53,254 bases of DNA, from assembly GCA_001512665.1 (NCBI GenBank), contig LFSF01000015.1, forward strand, positions 27,951-81,204, given 5' to 3'. The notes beneath the pieces are model-generated. The model made no database searches. It saw only the letters and a list, made by a program, of their open reading frames with translations, and had not been told where the DNA came from. This stretch comes from Clostridiales bacterium DTU073 (GTDB lineage Bacteria > Bacillota > Peptococcia > DRI-13 > DTU073). The position numbers were made by a program, and so were the translations under genes. Of this stretch, positions 1 through 23,219 are shown one piece after another. How positions within the stretch are numbered: position 1 is the first letter of the stretch; every line of letters begins with the position of its first letter.

Positions 1-1626
1 GCTGACGGCAGTGGCAGTGCGTTTACAGCCACAACAACAGTAACAGGAAATACAACCCTATACGCAAAGTGGACAATCAAGCAGTATACACTAACTTATA
101 CAGCGGGTTCCAATGGCAGTATTACTGGGACCAAGACCCAGACCGTCAATCATGGTGCCAGCGGGTCGGCAGTAACAGCAGTGCCGAATACGGGTTATCA
201 CTTTGTGAAATGGTCTGACGGCTCAACTGCTAACCCGCGTACAGATACCAATGTAACCGGTGATATATCAGTGACGGCAGAATTTGCGATTAATACCTAT
301 ACAGTTACTTTTGACAAAAACGGGGGAGATACAGAAGCAAATCCGCAAACCAAGACAGTGACACATGGCGGGAATGTGGGCACTCTGCCCACCGCACCCA
401 CCAAAACAGGCTGTACCTTTACCGGCTGGAATACTCAAGTTAACGGCAGTGGTGACGAATTTACAGAAGATACACCGGTGACAGGTAACATTACCGTATA
501 TGCGCAGTGGGTAGTTAATGTAACCGGAGTTAGCCTGAATAAGAGTTCGATAACCTTGGCGGTAGGGGCGTCAGAGACGTTGGTGGCGACAGTATCGCCC
601 TCTAATGCGACGAATAAAAATGTGACATGGAGTAGTAGTAATACAAATGTTGCTACGGTAAATAGTAGTGGAACAGTGACGGCAAAAGCTGCCGGAACAG
701 CAACGATTACTGTAAAAACAGTTGATGGAGGAAAAACTGCGACCTGTACTGTGTCAGTACCATATGTAATGGGTGCATCTTGGACAGTAGGACCAGACAC
801 TCCTTTAACCAGACTTGGTGATGCAGTAGGAAAAACTCCGGGAGCTGACTTTGATAATATCTATCCGTGGAGTGAGATGACGACACTTACACAAAATGGA
901 CAGACTGTAGTAAAAATACCAAAATTTTATTATAAGCGTACCTATGATGGGACAAAGCATGAATTTTGGATAACGAATACACCCTTGCCAGAATTTAAGC
1001 TACATCCGGCCTTTTTGCGTAATGGTGTTGAAAAACCTTATATTTTCGTCGGGGTAGGCAAATTTTCTGATCCAGGTGGATACACGTCGTGGCAGTGGTG
1101 TCGTCAAACAGCCCAAAGTTACGGCACAGGTTGGGACCTAATGGATATTCAAACCTGGAGTGCTATTCAAATACTTTGGTTGGTTGAATATGCTGATACC
1201 AATAGTCAAAAATTTAGTGCTAATTATCGCGGGATAAATGGATTATGGACTAATCCGGGGCAATATCTTAATGGGATTTATATTAGGAGCGGTAGTGTTT
1301 ATGTTGCGGGGACAAATACAGGCTTAATTGTGGATTATGGAGACTTTATTAAGAACTGGCAATATTCTTCTGATTATGATTGGCTTTTCATACCTAGTGC
1401 CTATAATCCGGATTACCCAACTCATTTTTATACATATATACCTGATATCTTTAACCATGCTAAACAATATTCAACACCGCAGGTGGTCCATGTAGGCTTC
1501 GATTACTACTGCACTCTCTCTAATGAATCTGCCCAATATGAAGCCGGTTTGTTTAAAATGGGAGCAGTTTACGAAGAAAGAAATGGAATCAAGAACCTAG
1601 GCGGGCGTGCCCAATATATCCCTTAA
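1..1626 (+). CDS. Secreted/phage-adhesin-like repeat protein: InlB B-repeat (Flg_new-like) modules, BIG2-like Ig domain, C-terminal tail-tip/C-type-lectin-like domain (5' truncated by window)
   Basis: Frame 1 is open from base 1; 'YTVTFDKNGGDTEANPQTKTVTHGGNVGTLPTAPTKTGCTFTGWNTQ...ITVYAQW' repeat, 'VTGVSLNKSSITLAVGASETLVATVSPSNATNKNVTWSSSNTNVATV' BIG2-like, 'RLGDAVGKTPGADFDNIYPWSEM...' C-terminal domain. Confidence 0.75.
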   Translation, partial: ADGSGSAFTATTTVTGNTTLYAKWTIKQYTLTYTAGSNGSITGTKTQTVNHGASGSAVTAVPNTGYHFVKWSDGSTANPRTDTNVTGDISVTAEFAINTYTVTFDKNGGDTEANPQTKTVTHGGNVGTLPTAPTKTGCTFTGWNTQVNGSGDEFTEDTPVTGNITVYAQWVVNVTGVSLNKSSITLAVGASETLVATVSPSNATNKNVTWSSSNTNVATVNSSGTVTAKAAGTATITVKTVDGGKTATCTVSVPYVMGASWTVGPDTPLTRLGDAVGKTPGADFDNIYPWSEMTTLTQNGQTVVKIPKFYYKRTYDGTKHEFWITNTPLPEFKLHPAFLRNGVEKPYIFVGVGKFSDPGGYTSWQWCRQTAQSYGTGWDLMDIQTWSAIQILWLVEYADTNSQKFSANYRGINGLWTNPGQYLNGIYIRSGSVYVAGTNTGLIVDYGDFIKNWQYSSDYDWLFIPSAYNPDYPTHFYTYIPDIFNHAKQYSTPQVVHVGFDYYCTLSNESAQYEAGLFKMGAVYEERNGIKNLGGRAQYIP

Positions 1627-8273: not shown

Positions 8274-8768
8274 ATGGTGATATTGTATAGTTTTGAATCG
8301 TATTCAACAGAGGATACGGTGGCTTTGGCCGAAAAACTAGGGAGAAAACTACAAGGTGGAGAAGTATTAGCCCTGGAAGGTGATTTAGGGGCAGGTAAAA
8401 CTCATTTTGTGAAAGGCTTGGCTAAGGGTTTAGGGGCGAAGGATACTGTAACGAGTCCCACTTTTACTCTGCTTCACCTTTATGAGGGCAGAATACCTTT
8501 AGCTCATTTTGATGTTTACCGATTACCTTTCCCTGAGGCTTTTGAAGAATTAGGCTACGAAGAATATTTTTCAGGGTCCGGTGTCACAGCAATTGAGTGG
8601 AGTGATTTGATTGCTCCTTTTTTACCGGCTGAATATTTACAGATTAAGATTACTCGTGTGTATCGGCAGGAGACGGGTGAAGGTCGTTTGATTAGCTTTA
8701 ATCCACATGGTGAGTCTATGGAAACGCTGGTAAAGGAGTTGGTTTTAAATGAAAGTTCTGGGCATTGA
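8274..8768 (+). CDS. tsaE: tRNA t6A biosynthesis ATPase TsaE
   Basis: 'LALEGDLGAGKTHFVKGLAKGLG', 'VTSPTFTLLHLYEG', 'HFDVYRL'. Confidence 0.93.
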   Translation: MVILYSFESYSTEDTVALAEKLGRKLQGGEVLALEGDLGAGKTHFVKGLAKGLGAKDTVTSPTFTLLHLYEGRIPLAHFDVYRLPFPEAFEELGYEEYFSGSGVTAIEWSDLIAPFLPAEYLQIKITRVYRQETGEGRLISFNPHGESMETLVKELVLNESSGH

Positions 8769-9453
8769 AAGTTCGTCACCTGTGGCTTCGGTAGCCTTGG
8801 TCTCTGAGGAGAAGCTGTGGGGAGAGATGACCTTAAATATTGGTTTGACTCATTCCGAACAACTCTTACCCTTAATTGATGAACTGTTACACCAGGTCAA
8901 GGTTGACATTTCTGAAATAGAGGGGATTGCTATTTCCGGAGGTCCTGGCTCTTTTACCGGTTTAAGGATTGGGATGGCTACAGCTAAGGGTTTGGCGCAA
9001 GGTCTCAATAAACCGCTGGTTAGTATTCCTACCTTATTAGCTTTAGCTTATCAGCAGGTAGGTTGTTCGGGATTAGTAGCACCGGTCTTGAATGCCCGCA
9101 GAAATGAGGTATATACGGCGTTATTTAGATTTAGCGGTGTGGAATATCAGCAGGTGGAGGATGATCAGGCGATTAATCCTCAATTATGGGCAGAAAAGCT
9201 TGCTGATTATGGAGAGCCTATTTTATTTACAGGCGATGGAGCAACAATTTATGCAGATGTTTGGCAGGAGAGTCTCGGGGAAAAGGCTGTAATTATTCCC
9301 GGTATTTTTCAATTGGCACGGGGAGCAAGCGTTGCTGAGCTAGGTCTGCGCAAGTTATTAAAAGGAGAAGAGGATGAAGTTTTTACGCTGAAGCCTCTGT
9401 ATATTCGTTCTTCTGAGGCTGAAAGGAAGTTGAAGACATCTGTTAAGTCTTGA
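8749..9453 (+). CDS. tsaB: tRNA t6A biosynthesis protein TsaB
   Basis: 'KVLGIESSSPVASVAL', 'ISGGPGSFTGLRIGMATAKGLA', 'PVLNARRNEVYTALF'; overlaps tsaE. Confidence 0.93.
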   Translation: MKVLGIESSSPVASVALVSEEKLWGEMTLNIGLTHSEQLLPLIDELLHQVKVDISEIEGIAISGGPGSFTGLRIGMATAKGLAQGLNKPLVSIPTLLALAYQQVGCSGLVAPVLNARRNEVYTALFRFSGVEYQQVEDDQAINPQLWAEKLADYGEPILFTGDGATIYADVWQESLGEKAVIIPGIFQLARGASVAELGLRKLLKGEEDEVFTLKPLYIRSSEAERKLKTSVKS

Positions 9454-9563
9454 ACAGACACATTATTTGTGTTAGGTTTAAGCATAGTGTTGTAGATTTT
9501 GCAAGTAAAATTTTGCTGTGTGGATTTAAGTAAAGAGGTGCAGGTAAGTAAAGAGGTGTATTT

Positions 9564-10031
9564 ATGGCTCTGAATACAAAGTATCTTTTGCGACCGATGG
9601 AAGAGAAAGATATACCGCAGGTTGTAGAGATTGAAAAACAGTCGTTCTCCTGTCCCTGGTCACCGTATGCTTTTAAGTGTGAATTAGCAGACAATGAATT
9701 TGCGTATTATTTAGTCGTAACTACAGAAGATAACCAAGAATTAGTCTTAGGTTATGGTGGGATGTGGCTGATCATTGATGAGTCCCATATTACGAATATT
9801 GCTATTGCTCCGGAGCATCGTGGGAAAAAATTGGGTGAGCTTCTTATGGGGGGGTTGGAGGCATTAGCGTTGCAAAAAGGTGCGTTACGAATGACATTAG
9901 AGGTACGGGTTTCTAACGAAAAAGCTCAGACCCTTTATAAAAGAAGAGGATTTGTTCCTTCCGGGATTCGTCCTAATTATTATGCTTTGGAAAATGAAGA
10001 TGCCCTTATTATGTGGAAGGAATTTTTCTGA
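9564..10031 (+). CDS. rimI: Ribosomal protein S18 alanine N-acetyltransferase (GNAT)
   Basis: 'IEKQSFSCPWSPYAF', 'ITNIAIAPEHRGKKLGELLMGGLEALA'; between tsaB and tsaD. Confidence 0.9.
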   Translation: MALNTKYLLRPMEEKDIPQVVEIEKQSFSCPWSPYAFKCELADNEFAYYLVVTTEDNQELVLGYGGMWLIIDESHITNIAIAPEHRGKKLGELLMGGLEALALQKGALRMTLEVRVSNEKAQTLYKRRGFVPSGIRPNYYALENEDALIMWKEFF

Positions 10032-10112: not shown

Positions 10113-11135
10113 ATGTTGGGACAAGATAAGGAAATAATTATGGCTGTAGAAACAAGTTGTGATGAGACAGCAGTAGCTATTTTGGCGGAAGGCAAAGATC
10201 TGTTGACCAATATAGTATCTTCGCAGATCAAAGTACATCAGCAATATGGCGGAGTTGTTCCTGAAATTGCTTCGCGTAAGCATTTGGAACAGGTTAATGG
10301 CTTAATAAGCTTGGCTTTAAAAGAGGCTAAGCTTAACTTTTCGCAGTTATCAGCCCTTGCGGTAACATATGGGCCCGGTTTAGTAGGTGCGTTATTAGTC
10401 GGAGTTAGTACAGTTAAGGCCTTGGCGTATAGTCTCAAACTTCCTTTGCTTGCTGTTAATCACATCGAAGGACATATTTATGCTAATTGGCTTACTCATA
10501 AGCACATTGAATTTCCGTTGATTGGTTTGATTGTTTCCGGTGGTCATACAGCTTTGGTGGAAATGCGTGGGCATGGAGAATATGTTTTGTTGGGACAAAC
10601 TCAAGATGATGCAGTTGGTGAAGCCTATGATAAGGTAGCTCGAGCTATGGGTTTGTCTTATCCAGGGGGACCGTTGTTGGATAGACTGGCTCAGGAAGGT
10701 AATCCTGAAGCGGTAAAATTGCCACGTGCTTGGTTGGGAGAAAACAGTTATGATTTTAGTTTTAGTGGGTTGAAGACGGCGGTTTTAAATTACTTGAATA
10801 GAGCTTCTCAAAAGGGAGAAAAGGTAATTCAAGCTGATCTTGCGGCGAGTTTTCAGGCTAGTGTAGTTGAAGTTTTAGTAGAAAAAACAGTTCGTGCTGC
10901 TAAACAAAAAGGCATACTATCAGTTTTGATGGCCGGCGGGGTTTCCGCCAATAGTTCACTGAGGGAGGAAATGCAAAAACGGTGTGGGCAGGAAGGTTTA
11001 AAGCTTTATTATCCACCGTTGGAGTTTTGTACTGATAATGCGGCTATGATTGCCTGTGCTGCTCATTATCGCTATTTAAAAGGGGAATTTGCCAATTGGA
11101 GCTTGAATGCAGTGCCGCAGTTAAGGTTATATTAG
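10113..11135 (+). CDS. tsaD: tRNA N6-threonylcarbamoyladenosine transferase TsaD
   Basis: 'MAVETSCDETAVAIL', 'VVPEIASRKHLEQV', 'VNHIEGHIYA', 'VSGGHTALV'. Confidence 0.97.
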   Translation: MLGQDKEIIMAVETSCDETAVAILAEGKDLLTNIVSSQIKVHQQYGGVVPEIASRKHLEQVNGLISLALKEAKLNFSQLSALAVTYGPGLVGALLVGVSTVKALAYSLKLPLLAVNHIEGHIYANWLTHKHIEFPLIGLIVSGGHTALVEMRGHGEYVLLGQTQDDAVGEAYDKVARAMGLSYPGGPLLDRLAQEGNPEAVKLPRAWLGENSYDFSFSGLKTAVLNYLNRASQKGEKVIQADLAASFQASVVEVLVEKTVRAAKQKGILSVLMAGGVSANSSLREEMQKRCGQEGLKLYYPPLEFCTDNAAMIACAAHYRYLKGEFANWSLNAVPQLRLY

Positions 11136-11276: not shown

Positions 11277-11702
11277 ATGGGTAGAGTGAAAAGTTTTATG
11301 CAGTTTAGTAAGAATGACCAAAGTGATATTATGCGGAATGGAAGAACGATAGAAGAATTATTAAGACGTGAATTAATCATTTATGCTAAATCAGCTTTAG
11401 ATAATGTGGATAGATTTATAGAAATCGCGAGAGAAGAATATAGTAATAGAAATTTTAGAGAATTAAAAGGGAAATATCTAGAAACATTAGAAGTAAGGGC
11501 AAAAAAACTAAGATCAATGGCAGAAATTTTAAGTGAAGTAGTAGTAGAATTAGAAAATTATGTGAACAAATTAGGTGAAAGTAGAGGTCTGGTGGATAGT
11601 TTTAAGAAGGTGTTTAGTGGAATTAATATATTTAATGATGAATTGAAAGCAAAAATTAAGAGAGAACCAGCTCATATTAAAACAAACTTATCATTAAGAT
11701 GA
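11277..11702 (+). CDS. Uncharacterised coiled-coil protein, copy A of tandem duplicate
   Basis: SD GGGAGGAG before ATG; similar to the ORF immediately downstream (…IEELLRRELI…A…NVDRFI…EEYSNRNF…). Confidence 0.65.
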   Translation: MGRVKSFMQFSKNDQSDIMRNGRTIEELLRRELIIYAKSALDNVDRFIEIAREEYSNRNFRELKGKYLETLEVRAKKLRSMAEILSEVVVELENYVNKLGESRGLVDSFKKVFSGINIFNDELKAKIKREPAHIKTNLSLR

Positions 11703-11784
11703 ATCTGAGGGGCAGCTTAGTAAGATTGACCTAAGTGATATTATCATAAAAGGAAGAAAGATAGAAGAACTATTAAAAAATGAA

Positions 11785-12141
11785 TTGCTAATTGATGCAG
11801 AATTAGCTTTAAAAAATGTGAACCGACTTATAATAGCAAAAGAAGAACATAGTAATAGCAATAGAAATTTTAAAAAAGTAAAAAGAGAATATATTGAGGA
11901 ATTAGAAAAACATGTACAAAAATTTAAAACTACGGTAGAATTGTTTAGAGAAACAGTAATAGAATTGGAAAATGAACTAAGTATATTAGGAAAAAATAAA
12001 GATAATGAAAGAGGAGATTTAAATAAGCGGAAAAATTTACAAGTTATTTATGATGGAATAAAGGGAATGAGACCGAATAGTCAGGAAATATCTGTAACAA
12101 ATGCGAGAGGGCTTTTTGCACCAAATAGGGACGTGCACTGA
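11785..12141 (+). CDS. Uncharacterised coiled-coil protein, copy B of tandem duplicate (5' end frameshifted or alternative start)
   Basis: Similarity to copy A extends upstream of the TTG start into 11701-11784 (ESEGQLSKIDLSDIIIKGRKIEELLKNEL), where there is no in-frame ATG. Confidence 0.5.
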   Translation: MLIDAELALKNVNRLIIAKEEHSNSNRNFKKVKREYIEELEKHVQKFKTTVELFRETVIELENELSILGKNKDNERGDLNKRKNLQVIYDGIKGMRPNSQEISVTNARGLFAPNRDVH

Positions 12142-12308
12142 CTTTTTAATAATATAAGAAATTAGAGAAAAACCGTTTTTGCGTTAATAGCTAGGGACAG
12201 TGTTTATTTTTTTTATAAATCTAGTATAATTAGAGAAGAATTAAAAATTTTTATCCTTATTTTACAAGAGGGGAAAAAGAATTTTAAAATTGAGGAGTTG
12301 GTTATACA

Positions 12309-13622
12309 TTGGACCCTGATAGTAGTCCTTATTTAATTCATGTGTTGTTTTTTGTTCTGCTTTCTTTCTTTTGTGTAACTTGTGAAAAGGCATTATGTAC
12401 ACTTAGCAAAAGGATAATACCCAAGGTAAATAGTGAAGAAGCGGGTAGTGAAGGTAATTCTAGTATTGCTTTGGTGAAGAAAGTATTAGAGGATCCTTCT
12501 GATGTATTTATTACACTTTTCTTTGTCAATTTAGTTAGTTGTATAGTCGCTGCCGGTTTAGGTATAGTAACAGCTCTAAAATATTGGGGTGAAGGCTGGG
12601 GATTTTTAGGTGCGGTAGCCGTTTTTATTGTTGTATTTATGCTGATTGGGGAAATTATTCCCGAGGTATTAGGGAAAAAATATGCTCAGGAAATTAGCTG
12701 TTTGTTTATTAGAATCATAGTGCTGTTTAAGTATTTGTGCTATCCTTTGACGAAACCATTTACTTTAATAAAGCAGTTTCTTAATAGAATAGTAGGTATA
12801 CCAAAAGATGAAGCAGAGAATGAGTTTACTGAAGAAGCAAAAGAGATCATTAATATGGTAACTTCTGGTTTAGCTGTTACGGGCGAAAACGAGGAAATGA
12901 TTAATCAAGTGGAAAAAACCATATTACATGGGGTTATTGAGTTTGCTGATATGGTAGTCAATGATGTTATGACACCTCGTCCGGATATTATTGCGGTAGA
13001 GAAAAATATTTCTTTTGATGATTTAATTACCATAATTAAAGAAGAAAAATTTTCTAGAATACCTGTTTATGAAAAGACAGTTGATAATATTATCGGAGTT
13101 GTGCATATTAAAGATTTGATTCTTCTATTGCCCGAACAAAGAGAGAATTTCTTTCTTGAAAAACATGTGCGCCAGACAATTTATATACCTGAAACAAAAA
13201 AAATCTCCGAATTATTTATGGTAATGAAAAAAGAGAAGATTCATATGGCTATTGTTTTGGATGAATACGGTAGTACTGCTGGGATTGTTACGTTAGAAGA
13301 TCTTATTGAAGAAATCATGGGTGACATACAAGACGAACATGACCGGGAGGAACCGTTATTGCGGCATATTGATGAGGATACAGTAGAGGTTAAGGCTAGT
13401 ATGAGGATTGAGGAGCTAAATGAAGATTTGAATCTTAACTTGAGTTGTGAAGAAGCAGATACGCTCGGCGGATTAGTCTTTGCGACTTTAGATCGTATAC
13501 CTGTAGAAGGTGATAAGATAGAAATAGCGGATCTTGAACTTTCTGTTTTGGAAATGGAAGGTCATCGCATTGAAAAGGTACGTTTAAATAAATTGCCAAG
13601 TGTTAAAGAAATAGAGGCTTAA
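12309..13622 (+). CDS. CNNM/CBS-pair/CorC_HlyC domain transporter-like protein (hemolysin-related family)
   Basis: N-terminal TM region (CNNM), CBS pair 'VVNDVMTPRPDIIAVEKNISFDDLI...', 'LDEYGSTAGIVTLEDLIEEIMGDIQDEHD'; TTG start after GAGGAG. Confidence 0.9.
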   Translation: MDPDSSPYLIHVLFFVLLSFFCVTCEKALCTLSKRIIPKVNSEEAGSEGNSSIALVKKVLEDPSDVFITLFFVNLVSCIVAAGLGIVTALKYWGEGWGFLGAVAVFIVVFMLIGEIIPEVLGKKYAQEISCLFIRIIVLFKYLCYPLTKPFTLIKQFLNRIVGIPKDEAENEFTEEAKEIINMVTSGLAVTGENEEMINQVEKTILHGVIEFADMVVNDVMTPRPDIIAVEKNISFDDLITIIKEEKFSRIPVYEKTVDNIIGVVHIKDLILLLPEQRENFFLEKHVRQTIYIPETKKISELFMVMKKEKIHMAIVLDEYGSTAGIVTLEDLIEEIMGDIQDEHDREEPLLRHIDEDTVEVKASMRIEELNEDLNLNLSCEEADTLGGLVFATLDRIPVEGDKIEIADLELSVLEMEGHRIEKVRLNKLPSVKEIEA

Positions 13623-13653
13623 AAAGAAAATAATAAAAGTAAGAATAAAAAAT

Positions 13654-13695
13654 ACGTTTATTTTTTCTACAGTGAGGAAAATAAACGTTTTTTTA
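13654..13695 (+). terminator. Rho-independent terminator
   Basis: ACGTTTATTTT...AAAATAAACGT perfect 11-bp arms followed by T-run. Confidence 0.85.
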
Positions 13696-13739
13696 ATTTA
13701 GAGGGTTTTAAGAGGGGTTTAAAATGAAGGAAAAGGTTT

Positions 13740-13922
13740 TGTGGATTAAAAATCTGTGGATAATGTGAGCAACTTTGTGAATAACTGCTATATGGGGTTT
13801 ACTAATGTGGACAAAAAACTGAGTAAAAAAATTTCCAAATCTGTGGATAATGTGGACATTATAAGAAAAACGCTGTACAATATGTAAAAATCTGTGTATA
13901 AGTTTGTGGATTTTGTGGATAG
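13740..13922. promoter_or_regulatory. Cluster of DnaA-box-like 9-mers, all in one orientation (TTATCCACA on the - strand)
   Basis: TGTGGATTA 13740; TGTGGATAA 13755 (perfect); TGTGAATAA 13776; TGTGGACAA 13806; TGTGGATAA 13842 (perfect); TGTGTATAA 13893; TGTGGATTT 13905; TGTGGATAG 13914; AT-rich DNA follows. Confidence 0.6.
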
Positions 13923-14047
13923 GTAGCACATATGTTCTGGGAAAAATTTTAAAAAAATGTAAAAACATTTGCAATAAATTTCTGAATAGAATATAATATA
14001 CTTAAGATATCTGGAAAAGTAAATAAATATAAAGGGGATTACTTGAA

Positions 14048-14254
14048 ATGTTGAATGGTATATATGAAGCAAATAGAGTAATAAGGAGAGATTTAGCAAT
14101 AAATATTATAAAAAACAGTTCCAGTGAGTTTCTTAATTTACTCATTGAAGATAATGGAGTCTATAAGTTATCTAAGATGTTTAATGTTTATAAAGAAGCA
14201 GAAAATAATTTGATTAGAGTTTTTGAAAGTATAAAAATGGAGATAGATTTATAA
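14048..14254 (+). CDS. Uncharacterised small helical protein
   Basis: ATG preceded by AAAGGGGATTACTTGAA; 68 aa; first ORF after the DnaA-box cluster. Confidence 0.5.
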   Translation: MLNGIYEANRVIRRDLAINIIKNSSSEFLNLLIEDNGVYKLSKMFNVYKEAENNLIRVFESIKMEIDL

Positions 14255-14274
14255 GGGATTCTAAAGAATGGCAA

Positions 14275-14778
14275 ATGTTTCGTAATGAATTATATCTGAG
14301 ATATGATGCAGCCAGAGAAGCTGTAGCTATCATGGAAAAATCAGAGATAACAAGAAATGATGTGATAGCTTATTTAAAAATTTGTCAGTCTTTAGGAGGA
14401 AATATTAATAAAAATCAATCAGAACTTCTGCAAACATTAAAAGCAATAAATTTAACAGAACGGGGCTTAGATAGTCTAATTCATGAGGTAAATGAAGCGG
14501 AAAAATTATCAGTTACAGAGTGGTTAGACAAGATGGGAACTAAAGATTTGAATTCATTAAATAAAAATGATTATGAAGATATGTTGAGTGAGGCGTGGAA
14601 ATTAAGAAAAGATTCTTTTAATCAAATGTTTGATAACAAACAGGAAAAAATTAATGTTGCCGAATTTAGTAATCCTCATAAAGATTGGATTACTAATAGT
14701 GTGAGAGATGAGGTAATGTTTGAGGCAGCTTTGCGGGACAATGTCAATAAGGATGATTTAATGGCGAGAATTATTTAA
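14275..14778 (+). CDS. Uncharacterised helical protein
   Basis: 167-aa ORF in the orphan array; no recognised family. Confidence 0.55.
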   Translation: MFRNELYLRYDAAREAVAIMEKSEITRNDVIAYLKICQSLGGNINKNQSELLQTLKAINLTERGLDSLIHEVNEAEKLSVTEWLDKMGTKDLNSLNKNDYEDMLSEAWKLRKDSFNQMFDNKQEKINVAEFSNPHKDWITNSVRDEVMFEAALRDNVNKDDLMARII

Positions 14779-15008
14779 AGGCGACAGCAGAGAATTATTA
14801 GAAATGAATGAATTATTGAATTTAGAAGATGTTTGCTATAAAGATTTAGATCTTGAAAAAATTAGTAATAATAAAATTAAAAATATAAAACAGAAAAATA
14901 CAAAAAACAGAGATTGGGATGATAAGAGGGGAAGATGACTTCTTTTCCAGAGTGGGCTAGAGTTTAACAAATGTTTATTAACAAATGTTTAAATAAGGAG
15001 GGGTTGTG

Positions 15009-15725
15009 ATGGCACGTTTACCTTGGAGAAGACCGGAAGAAAGAAAGGAAGCTGAAAACAGATTAAAAAATGGGTCTGTTTTTGGTATTGTAAGAAACGG
15101 ATTTATGGAATTGCCCCAAAATAGAGAAGTTGAAGAAGAACGTTATGCTCCACAGAGTGAGTTAATTCTTGAAGGACGACAATCCCGACAATCAGTGGAA
15201 ATAGACAAAGGAGTAAATGGTGGTAGTAGAACGGTTGAAGATTTCTTAGCTGCAGCCAAAGCAAATAAGAATAAAGAACAGCAAGTAAGCATAGTAAATA
15301 CTCCTAATGAAGAAATTGTAATAACATCAAGAGCAAGAACTCCGAGAATGAAAGTACCAGGTTATACGGAAAAGGTAATGCCTGATGGTTCAATAATAAG
15401 CACTAAGGACAAAGGAGTAAATGGTGGTGGTAGAACGGTTGAAGATTTCTTAGCTGCAGCCAAAGCAAATAAAAATAAAGAACAGCAAGTAAGCATAGTA
15501 AATACACCTAATGAAGAAATTGTAATAACATCAAGAACAAGAACTCCGAGAATGAAAGTACCAGGTTATACGGAAAAGGTAATGCCTGATGGTTCAATAA
15601 TAAGTGTTAAGGAACAAAGCATAGCGGGAAGAAAGTTACCAAATGACATTTCTGAACAGTCGAAAGCTCAGGGCGTAAAACCAGTGAGACAGGTAAGAAC
15701 AAATGACGACAGAGAGTTTTGTTAA
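15009..15725 (+). CDS. Uncharacterised protein with near-identical 68-aa tandem repeat; C-terminal -DREFC
   Basis: AAGGAGGGGTTGTG-ATG; repeat DKGVNGG[SG]RTVEDFLAAAKANKNKEQQ...MPDGSIIS.K twice. Confidence 0.7.
   Translation: MARLPWRRPEERKEAENRLKNGSVFGIVRNGFMELPQNREVEEERYAPQSELILEGRQSRQSVEIDKGVNGGSRTVEDFLAAAKANKNKEQQVSIVNTPNEEIVITSRARTPRMKVPGYTEKVMPDGSIISTKDKGVNGGGRTVEDFLAAAKANKNKEQQVSIVNTPNEEIVITSRTRTPRMKVPGYTEKVMPDGSIISVKEQSIAGRKLPNDISEQSKAQGVKPVRQVRTNDDREFC
15204..15611 (+). repeat. Direct tandem repeat, 2 x 204 bp (15204-15407 and 15408-15611)
   Basis: Only a handful of substitutions between the copies by eye; in frame, 68 codons each. Confidence 0.95.
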
Positions 15726-15789
15726 AGGCTTTCTTTCTTATTCTTTAACTATATAGTTAGTTAAAAGAGAAGAGAAAGGGGAGATTAGG

Positions 15790-17235
15790 ATGGCAATTAA
15801 CGAGCATGAAATTGATGAATATGGCGAAATAATAGTACAGGGGGAGAGCGGGCAGCAGGATTTGGAAACAAGTGAGAATAGTGTCGCAGAAAAAGAAGTG
15901 CTGGCTAAGCATAATAGAGGCGAACAGGTTGCCCGACAATTGGAAACCAATCCGCCTCAAAACGAAACAAAAGGTATAATAGGCTGGTATAGGGATTGGC
16001 GAAAAAATAGAATATACAAAAAAATGGATAAAGAAATTCGCAAATTATTCAGGGAGCTTAATAATGAAGGGTTAGAGTATTTGCCTCATATTTATCCTAC
16101 ATCTAAAAGTGATAATGCTAAAGAAATGGCGAGAGAAATGCATGCAATTGAGACAGTACTTGAGAAATATGGAAATAAGTTGTCACCTGAAGAAAGGAGA
16201 TATGCAAGGGAAGCTTTTTATGAACGCGTAATAGCCGCAGCTGTGGTAAGGCATAAAGGAGAAGCATGTGAATTAGGTGAGTTTGCACGTTTTGAAAATG
16301 CAGAGAATATGTTTAGACCTTCTCCGTATCAAAAAATCTTTATTCCTAATTTTAAGAATCATATTGCCGAACTAAAAGCAGAGAATAAATATAAAGAAGC
16401 AAATCCACGAGAAAATAGAGTTTTAGAAATAGAACTAAAATTACTATCGGAAAGAGCATATAATCTTCGTTATAACGAAAAATATAAAGGATATCTTAGA
16501 AAAAGTAAGGATACGGAGAAAAACCGTTATTTCGAAAAGCTTGATAAAGAATGGATAGAGGATGCATTCAATAAGATACAAAATGGTTTAAAGGATGAAT
16601 TTGAACGTGATCCGGAGTTAAAAAAGGAAATTGATAAATTACGCGAAAAGATGGAATATGAGGCTCTAAAGGCTAAATGTAAGAGATTAGGTATAAAGCC
16701 TCCTGAAAAAAATGCGTCTAAGCAGACACCTAAGACGCCAGACAAACCTAAATTTAGGGTAAGTAGAACTAAAGTTGGTAATGAGTTAAGAATTAAAAGA
16801 AAAAACAAACAGGAACCCCCTAAGGTACAGGCAGAGGGACTCAAACCACTTAAAGTATGGGAAAATAATGCTAAAACATTCGCTAAATCAGAGCAACAGA
16901 AAATGATTGATGAGTTTCGTACAAAGTATCCGGAACAATATAACAGAGCTATGGGTAATATAGAAAAAGAGCAAAGAGAAGCAAGGAAAATGGCTGATGA
17001 ATTAAGCACATTGTATCCGGTATATTTTGATAGAGCTATGGCTAAAAATACAGTAGTGGATAATTCACTAATAACTAATGAACAGCAAAATAGACAGATG
17101 ACTTTAGATGAATGGCAGAATAATGTAGATATTATTAAAAAAGAAGAGCATGCGAATACCAGGACTTTATATGCAGGCAAATCTCCATTTGGTGAATCAA
17201 GCAATAAGAGAAAAAGTGCACCAGAACGTTGTTAA
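15790..17235 (+). CDS. Uncharacterised charged helix-rich protein with C-terminal -SAPERC
   Basis: SD AGAAAGGGGAG before ATG; 481 aa; shares the array motif (YLPHIYPTSKSDNAKEMAREMHAIE). Confidence 0.7.
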   Translation: MAINEHEIDEYGEIIVQGESGQQDLETSENSVAEKEVLAKHNRGEQVARQLETNPPQNETKGIIGWYRDWRKNRIYKKMDKEIRKLFRELNNEGLEYLPHIYPTSKSDNAKEMAREMHAIETVLEKYGNKLSPEERRYAREAFYERVIAAAVVRHKGEACELGEFARFENAENMFRPSPYQKIFIPNFKNHIAELKAENKYKEANPRENRVLEIELKLLSERAYNLRYNEKYKGYLRKSKDTEKNRYFEKLDKEWIEDAFNKIQNGLKDEFERDPELKKEIDKLREKMEYEALKAKCKRLGIKPPEKNASKQTPKTPDKPKFRVSRTKVGNELRIKRKNKQEPPKVQAEGLKPLKVWENNAKTFAKSEQQKMIDEFRTKYPEQYNRAMGNIEKEQREARKMADELSTLYPVYFDRAMAKNTVVDNSLITNEQQNRQMTLDEWQNNVDIIKKEEHANTRTLYAGKSPFGESSNKRKSAPERC

Positions 17236-17269
17236 GAGTATAAGAAAGGAGAAGTATTTAATAATATGA

Positions 17270-17989
17270 ATGTTACCAGATTTTTCTTTGCTTGAAAATA
17301 TAAAGTATAGCATAGATATAGATATTAAGGAAACCAGACCTTCTGAATACTATAAAATGTATTTACATCCTTCGTTTAATAAAGAATTATATGAAAAGGA
17401 ATTGCAAGCTATTGAAAAAAATTTTGCTGAACGGGAAAAAGATTTGCAAGAATTTTGCAAGCAAAATCCCGAATTGAAAGAACAAATAAAAAATTTAAAA
17501 GTTGGTTTTAAACAAAGGGCAAAGGATAGGTATGATTTTACAGATTACTGTACTCAAATTATGGATGATAATAGAGCACAAAGAGATGATATACCTGAAC
17601 CTCCTCAAGAAATGATTGAAAGGTTTCTTAAAGAAGAGTATAATCCTTATTTTGCAGAAGGATTCATTAGATTTGAGAGTATGAGGGCTGAACTGGAGAC
17701 AAGGTGGGAAAGTAGATTAGCAAAGTTAGAAAGAAGAAGAAGGAAACAGGAAAATTTAGAAAATAACCCCAGACTTCAATTGCCTGAGAAATTTAAACGG
17801 GATCGAAGTGATCAGAGAAGTATTGATTCTATTTTATCTGAGTATGGATATGGCAATAAAGCAAAAAAAGAAACGGCTGAGCCTGAAAAAACTATTGATG
17901 CTGGAATGTCAGCTAATAAGGATGGACAGATTACACGAAATGGCAATTCTTCTCCGAGAGAAAAAAGTAGTGAGCCTGAACGTTGTTAA
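17270..17989 (+). CDS. Uncharacterised charged helix-rich protein with C-terminal -SSEPERC
   Basis: 239 aa; array motif EYYKMYLHPSFNKELYEKELQAIEKNF. Confidence 0.65.
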   Translation: MLPDFSLLENIKYSIDIDIKETRPSEYYKMYLHPSFNKELYEKELQAIEKNFAEREKDLQEFCKQNPELKEQIKNLKVGFKQRAKDRYDFTDYCTQIMDDNRAQRDDIPEPPQEMIERFLKEEYNPYFAEGFIRFESMRAELETRWESRLAKLERRRRKQENLENNPRLQLPEKFKRDRSDQRSIDSILSEYGYGNKAKKETAEPEKTIDAGMSANKDGQITRNGNSSPREKSSEPERC

Positions 17990-18029
17990 ATTGTAAGAGA
18001 ATGTTTTTAACAGAAAGGAAAGGTTCAAA

Positions 18030-18920
18030 ATGGGATTGACAGGTGGAGTAATAAAATGGTTAATAGACAGGAATCAGTCCAGACTTAAAGAGATGAGCAA
18101 GGATAGTTTGGAGATTGATTTTCAGTTAAGGTATGGATATTTGGAAGGTTTATGCTCGAAAAAACAACTTGAAGGTATCAAGAAGATTTATCAAGAATTG
18201 GAAGAACTAAAAACTAGCCTTGGACAAGTTTATGAAATAACACCTGCTCCTTTAGAGAAAATAGAGAGGAGAAATGAATTAGAGCTTTTTTTCAATGACA
18301 TAGATAGAATTATTAACCAAGGTAAGCTTGATGTAGCAATTATGGCGATTGAGCTGGATACCCAACAAAAAATAAATGAGGCTATAAAGAGGATGGTCAT
18401 GGCACGTGAAGATTTTATTCAAACTTGCCCTGATTATTTAAGTATGAATATCGAGTATGGACAAAATGTATATATCTTAAATGAAGCGAGGAATAAGATT
18501 AACTGTGCATATTATGAAAGCCTGGATATATATAAAAACAGCCCTGATTTCCCTATAATTAATAATAAGCTTAATGAGATAAGAGATAAAATGTTTTTAT
18601 GTGAAAAGCATATGTATAATTATAGAGAAAAAGGCTTTGATTTTTCTGAAGATAAAAAGACTGAATTATATGAACTGGAAGCTGAATTCAGTAATTTCGG
18701 TTCTGAAAGACTAGCTGGTTTAAAAACTATTGATGAAGGATTTCATGAAATTAGAAGAAAAATGGCGGAAGAGGCCTTAAAAAAACGAGAAGAGCAAAGA
18801 GAATTTGATAAATTTGCTGAACGTGTTGATGAAGTATATGAACAAACGAAAGAATTAGCTGAGGCAAGTATTCCGATTAGAAGTTCGCATGTGAGCATAA
18901 ATGAACGGATGTCTCGGTAA
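18030..18920 (+). CDS. Uncharacterised coiled-coil protein
   Basis: SD GAAAGGAAAGG before ATG; 296 aa; N-terminal GVIKWLIDRNQSRLKEM similar in layout to neighbours. Confidence 0.65.
   Translation: MGLTGGVIKWLIDRNQSRLKEMSKDSLEIDFQLRYGYLEGLCSKKQLEGIKKIYQELEELKTSLGQVYEITPAPLEKIERRNELELFFNDIDRIINQGKLDVAIMAIELDTQQKINEAIKRMVMAREDFIQTCPDYLSMNIEYGQNVYILNEARNKINCAYYESLDIYKNSPDFPIINNKLNEIRDKMFLCEKHMYNYREKGFDFSEDKKTELYELEAEFSNFGSERLAGLKTIDEGFHEIRRKMAEEALKKREEQREFDKFAERVDEVYEQTKELAEASIPIRSSHVSINERMSR

Positions 18921-21581: not shown

Positions 21582-23219
<1,638 letters not shown>

Follow-up and report, generated by a model that had tools for sequence, protein, structure and literature searches.

A tsaD-linked, one-orientation array of DnaA boxes recurs across Bacillota and is a likely DnaA sink

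The DnaA-box array at positions 13740–13938 of the window (by which we mean the whole stretch of 53,254 nucleotides from Clostridiales bacterium DTU073 analysed here) is, in our judgement, likely to be this lineage's version of the tsaD(gcp)-linked DnaA-box cluster, and we predict that it serves as a DnaA sink, holding DnaA away from oriC and restraining re-initiation. We infer its function in this organism from sequence. Because the array follows tsaD in many Bacillota, Bacillales included, we regard it as old and probably functional, acting to restrain DNA replication, and not as an oddity of one genome. A DnaA-box cluster as such is an element of a known kind, published for B. subtilis; what appears to be new is that this one is ancient and ordered, is tied to tsaD, and belongs to Bacillota at large instead of being peculiar to Bacillus, with its position, strand and geometry conserved. 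We found no literature on tsaD/gcp-linked clusters in other Firmicutes; Bacillus-wide conservation is possibly covered in PMC3245932 and PMC2533591.

Seven DnaA boxes (TTATCCACA, at most one mismatch) lie on the − strand within 183 bp (13740–13922), and no box of this quality was found on the + strand within the same cluster. Three additional 9-mers, which carry two to three mismatches in the window copy, are in register with the relatives, bringing the total to ten boxes in register. The left part of the array consists of B1 (TGTGGATTA, 13740–13748, one mismatch), B2 (TGTGGATAA, 13755–13763, perfect, and no more than one mismatch away in 11 of the 13 relatives), B2' (TGTGAGCAA, 13764–13772, abutting B2, with three mismatches in the window and TGTGnATAA in the relatives), B3 (TGTGAATAA, 13776–13784, one mismatch) and B4 (TGTGGACAA, 13806–13814, one mismatch), with start spacings of 15, 9, 12 and 30. 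The right part is made up of M1 (TGTGGATAA, 13842–13850, perfect), M2 (TGTGGACAT, 13851–13859, two mismatches, abutting M1), R1 (TGTGTATAA, 13893–13901, one mismatch here but none in 11 of the 13 relatives), R2 (TGTGGATTT, 13905–13913, two mismatches, separated from R1 by a 3-bp gap) and R3 (TGTGGATAG, 13914–13922, one mismatch, abutting R2), with start spacings of 9, 42, 12 and 9. The arrangement is head to tail throughout, with boxes that abut (9 bp) or leave 3-bp gaps (12 bp), and AT-rich DNA lies nearby. As aligned with 13–15 relatives, the conserved one-orientation array spans about 200 bp and reads in the TGTGGATAA sense on the + strand. Across the 53-kb window, boxes show no overall enrichment (22 against 16.8 expected, a count reached by 14 of 100 shuffles), and the signal is therefore the cluster itself: in 60 simulated 53-kb sequences with the local low-GC composition, the maximum was two same-strand boxes per 183 bp, as compared to seven here. 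The dense one-orientation cluster with two perfect boxes described in the initial annotation is thus real.

The array closes with a 3' motif on the + strand (AGCACATATGTTCT, 13925–13938; consensus G-A/R-R-C-R-TATGTTCT), a half-degenerate palindrome with a mean identity of 0.867 within the order. In 12 of the 14 copies of this order, the last box is directly followed by a motif of consensus AGAGCATATGTTCT, which we detected beyond the order at one locus only (L137). We take this motif to resemble half of the Firmicutes SOS (LexA) box, its left half being degenerate. ATATGC, the inverted repeat of GCATAT, sometimes occurs 30–75 bp after the AGAGCATATGTTCT motif. Folding 13 arrays with RNAalifold yielded four pairs only, every one inside the 3' motif, and hence no conserved RNA fold of the array; the array region had no match in Rfam.

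In the window the array belongs to a neighbourhood in which tsaB and rimI (8749–10031; TIGR03725, TIGR01575) precede tsaD (10113–11135; TIGR03723, E 4.8e-135), the gene linked to the array across Bacillota, and in which 5-formyltetrahydrofolate cyclo-ligase and groEL (21594–23219; NF000592/TIGR02348) follow later, all four named genes with coordinates being on the + strand; groEL also follows the array at two other loci (L185 and L194). Here 2665 bp separate the array from the tsaD match, which precedes it on the same strand, compared with typically 59–250 bp elsewhere, and the interval holds three + strand ORFs (11277–13622), two without a family and one encoding a CNNM/CorC protein (12309–13622). 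The low-GC ORFs at 14048–18920 and 11277–12141 encode charged or coiled-coil-like sequences without a convincing Pfam or NCBIfam match, and the ORF at 15006–15725 contains a unit of about 80 residues in two near-identical copies.

To find orthologous loci we used the CNNM protein as a lead. In families f1–f7 (seven of the eight in the order) the array follows the CNNM gene and is syntenic in 15 genomes. A sequence profile of the array (profile R1) gives one full-length match per genome in f1–f7, the window's own genome (G000) included, the exceptions being G006 and G005; the remaining family, f8, has no CNNM orthologue and carries one copy (L126) directly after tsaD. The two exceptional genomes are of one genus in the window's own family: G006 (L040) retains a shortened array that lacks the right part, and G005 (L049) has lost the array and kept the promoter-like sequence that follows it. 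The loss in G005 shows that the array in this locus is singly dispensable.

Beyond the order, the profile detects the array in 41 of 46 genomes of the class (E ≤ 1e-4) and in 108 of 399 genomes of the phylum (E ≤ 1e-8). Both coordinates are listed for 52 genomes; in 47 of these the array shares the strand of tsaD and follows it at a distance of 59–2818 bp (within 250 bp in 33), and the figure is 42 of 47 once the five genomes used for profile building are set aside. Since a profile finds its own kind, we added sampling downstream of tsaD that made no use of it. In 16 of 40 genomes missed by the profile, three or more boxes of one orientation lie within 200 bp, the first of them 48–274 bp past the tsaD match; the other 24 have no array after tsaD. 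Of 40 genomes from the order of G426, which we assigned to Bacillales by synteny (tsaD, array, convergent ABC-F (ydiF-like), moaC-like), 34 have at least four boxes downstream of tsaD, in the window's orientation in all but one. Shuffled controls gave 0/800 in each of the two tsaD-based samplings. The sole opposite-orientation Bacillales array found (L240, in G497) has seven boxes and is located between tsaD and the ABC-F gene. The genes next to the array differ between clades (etfB, lgt, radical SAM, RidA-like, murC and others), and ydiF is absent from the window and from most non-Bacillales, so we did not treat a convergent ydiF as a defining feature. In family f10 of the class, an array-like cluster (L142–L146) lies between yigZ-like (IMPACT family) and thioredoxin-like genes rather than beside tsaD, and is either a relocated array or a different cluster.

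The order of the boxes recurs as well. As a template we took the right part of the window array (0, 9, 52, 64, 73, with a tolerance of 1 on the last three) and scored its match in arrays of the order (set A), of Bacillales (set B), of other Bacillota (set C) and of a small further set (D) against 1000 permutations of the gaps within each array. The mean match exceeded the largest permuted mean in set A (3.14 versus 3.07), set B (3.27 versus 3.18) and set C (3.58 versus 3.35); in the small set D it was 2.80, below the largest permuted mean of 2.90, and there is thus no excess over all permutations. As the template was drawn from set A, sets B and C are the independent tests. The core geometry that recurs across clades, and which M1 opens, is M1-9-M2-42..44-R1-12-R2-9-R3, and the window array shares both its orientation and this core spacing with its Bacillales homologues.

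These results meet published measurements at the B. subtilis locus. The strongest DnaA-binding regions in vitro include the one at 627,955, annotated as 'downstream of gcp; downstream of ydiF', which has 10 sites; its apparent Kd is 0.15 μM for ATP-DnaA and 0.33 μM for ADP-DnaA, 16-fold more of its DNA was recovered with ATP-DnaA at 55 nM, and roughly 15% of the genome separates it from oriC (627,955 of 4.2 Mb; PMC4447404). Like the window array, the gcp-ydiF cluster is a dense group of DnaA boxes downstream of tsaD/gcp, and its Bacillales homologues agree with the window in box orientation and core spacings. The window array differs in that three ORFs, the CNNM gene among them, intervene after tsaD, in that ydiF is missing, and in its order-specific AGAGCATATGTTCT motif past the last box; this likeness is drawn through the Bacillales homologues. 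The gcp cluster is reportedly one of the six deleted by Okumura et al. in 2012. According to a review, B. subtilis lacking six clusters initiates early and restoring one gives partial relief (Okumura et al. 2012, via PMC5295017); the same review rates the clusters as not significant, and the phenotype takes loss of all six (PMC5295017). Reviews regard these clusters as minor and leave undecided whether B. subtilis has loci that control the nucleotide state of DnaA (PMC5295017; PMC13220808). That Bacillales and clostridial lineages alike hold such an array next to one gene, on one strand and with spacings that recur, is hard to square with a dispensable sponge, and it singles out one cluster and its core spacing as a target for mutagenesis in genetically tractable hosts.

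We consider a cooperative DnaA sink that restrains initiation the most likely reading of the array. On this model it would be chiefly ATP-DnaA that loads cooperatively, in head-to-tail fashion, on boxes that abut or are 3 bp apart, forming a compact nucleoprotein complex that would keep DnaA off oriC. Copying of the array early in a replication round would double the sink and so restrain re-initiation. In the twelve genomes compared (lengths approximate for most), the array is separated from dnaA by about 7.7–27% of the genome (median 15%), which implies early duplication, as a titration brake requires. The array would be one among several redundant sites, a redundancy that would allow single lineages to lose it. 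In proposing a DnaA-titrating or regulatory locus of the DBS or datA kind, the initial annotation pointed in the direction that the sequence comparisons now support, given the match to the tsaD(gcp)-linked cluster and the high affinity of its B. subtilis counterpart (PMC4447404).

Several points count against the sink: early initiation in the published work needs loss of all six clusters, the array is gone in G005 and shortened in G006, some clades have none after tsaD, and the conserved geometry exceeds the needs of a passive one. This last point makes a role on the nucleotide or oligomer state of DnaA the main rival. The array could be an active control element like datA or DARS, in which a complex built on the geometry hydrolyses or exchanges the DnaA nucleotide, or hands DnaA to an inhibitor such as YabA. 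The E. coli datA locus resembles our array in being non-coding, in carrying DnaA boxes and in lying apart from oriC, in its case by about 10% of the genome, but it occupies an unrelated position and requires IHF. E. coli DARS1 and DARS2 share with the array a non-coding box cluster of defined geometry in a conserved chromosomal place; there is no homology in sequence or place, and Fis/IHF sites and nucleotide exchange belong to DARS. Conservation of the geometry over clades beyond gap permutation speaks for an active element, as do the preference for ATP-DnaA at the B. subtilis locus (PMC4447404) and the statement of a 2026 review that regulators of the DnaA nucleotide state in B. subtilis are still unknown (PMC13220808). 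However, IHF is missing in Bacillus and datA/DARS loci are listed as absent from B. subtilis (PMC13220808), and we rate an active element of this kind as rather unlikely. We would entertain, tentatively and with slightly less reserve, the broader proposal that the tsaD-linked array is an ancestral Bacillota control element that pre-dates the split between Bacillales and the clostridial lineages and has since retained its position, strand and geometry, its predicted complex altering the nucleotide or oligomer state of DnaA; if true, Gram-positive bacteria would have in it their counterpart of datA/DARS, beyond a mere sink.

We regard it as quite improbable that the array is a DnaA-responsive site controlling transcription of an adjoining gene. 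DnaA does act as a transcription factor in Bacillus (PMC4447404), and in the window a pattern scan found a promoter-like sequence for the following ORFs after the array (TTGCAA-17-TATAAT, 13969–13997, + strand). Comparable sequences follow the array at L040 and L043, and one is present at L049, where the array is lost. The changing neighbours argue against such a role, as does the position of the Bacillales array, mostly between convergent genes. The upstream gene, moreover, has its own terminator-like hairpin with a U-run before the array (13643–13699, + strand; fold −14.9 kcal/mol, z −4.0), a hairpin that does not appear in the output of a stricter terminator pattern scan.

That the array is a replication origin, be it oriC, a second origin or an iteron-bearing relic of an integrated replicon, we hold to be very improbable, even with its numerous same-strand DnaA boxes and AT-rich DNA nearby. 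In G000 (1.67 Mb, 52 contigs) dnaA lies on contig C24 (15676–17007) and the array on C18. Just upstream of dnaA are three perfect boxes in both orientations, and the dnaA-dnaN gap contains four one-mismatch boxes and a five-unit DnaA-trio-like run; around the array (13650–14100) a search for a run of three trios found none. This bipartite oriC (L034, C24:14000–18000), in which boxes flank dnaA and the trio-like run TTATTACTATTATTA precedes dnaN, has a box consensus identical to that of the array, but unlike the array it uses both orientations and adjoins dnaA/dnaN. GC skew is uniform across the window. In the single-contig relative G007 (3,805,411 bp) it has one sign switch at dnaA (~2.67 Mb) and another in the interval 0.78–0.95 Mb, and it is uniformly negative at the array, located at 1.914 Mb, 0.755 Mb from dnaA. 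The chromosomal oriC is thus elsewhere, as the initial annotation had argued from the uniform gene strand. Its suggestion of a relic origin from an integrated replicon did not hold: the ten flanking ORFs scanned include no replication initiator (Rep-like) gene, and the array is conserved vertically, in place.

Decayed coding DNA with VD-rich repeats, the other alternative raised at the outset, has next to no chance of being correct: every box spacing in the window copy is indeed a multiple of 3, but the relatives have 35 for 36, 31–32 for 30, 52–53 for 51, and also 43 or 44, so that spacers shift by one or two bases while the boxes stay and the reading frame is broken. Conservation follows the 9-mers (mean identity of 0.865 in box columns versus 0.581 in spacer columns of the relatives' alignment), almost all array copies have stops in every frame (one frame is open in G011), and the 'VDN/VDK heptads' are (T)GTG GAT AA(N), that is, the box read in frame. 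The multiples of 3 are a coincidence of the window copy.

A second, shorter conserved array has the form TGTGGATAATGTGnAtAACTnTGTTaATAAC, about 20 bp, then TGTGGATAA, often with TTGAC next. It is present at G000:C1:72429–72552 (L136), L122 and L130–L135, and in f8 at L124, L125, L127 and L128. Judged by eye from translations, it adjoins fliD/fliS-like flagellar genes and is bordered on its opposite flank by hpf-like or amino-acid ABC-transporter genes; in f8 it is located beside a comFC-like gene. In G007 this second array lies 0.386 Mb from dnaA.
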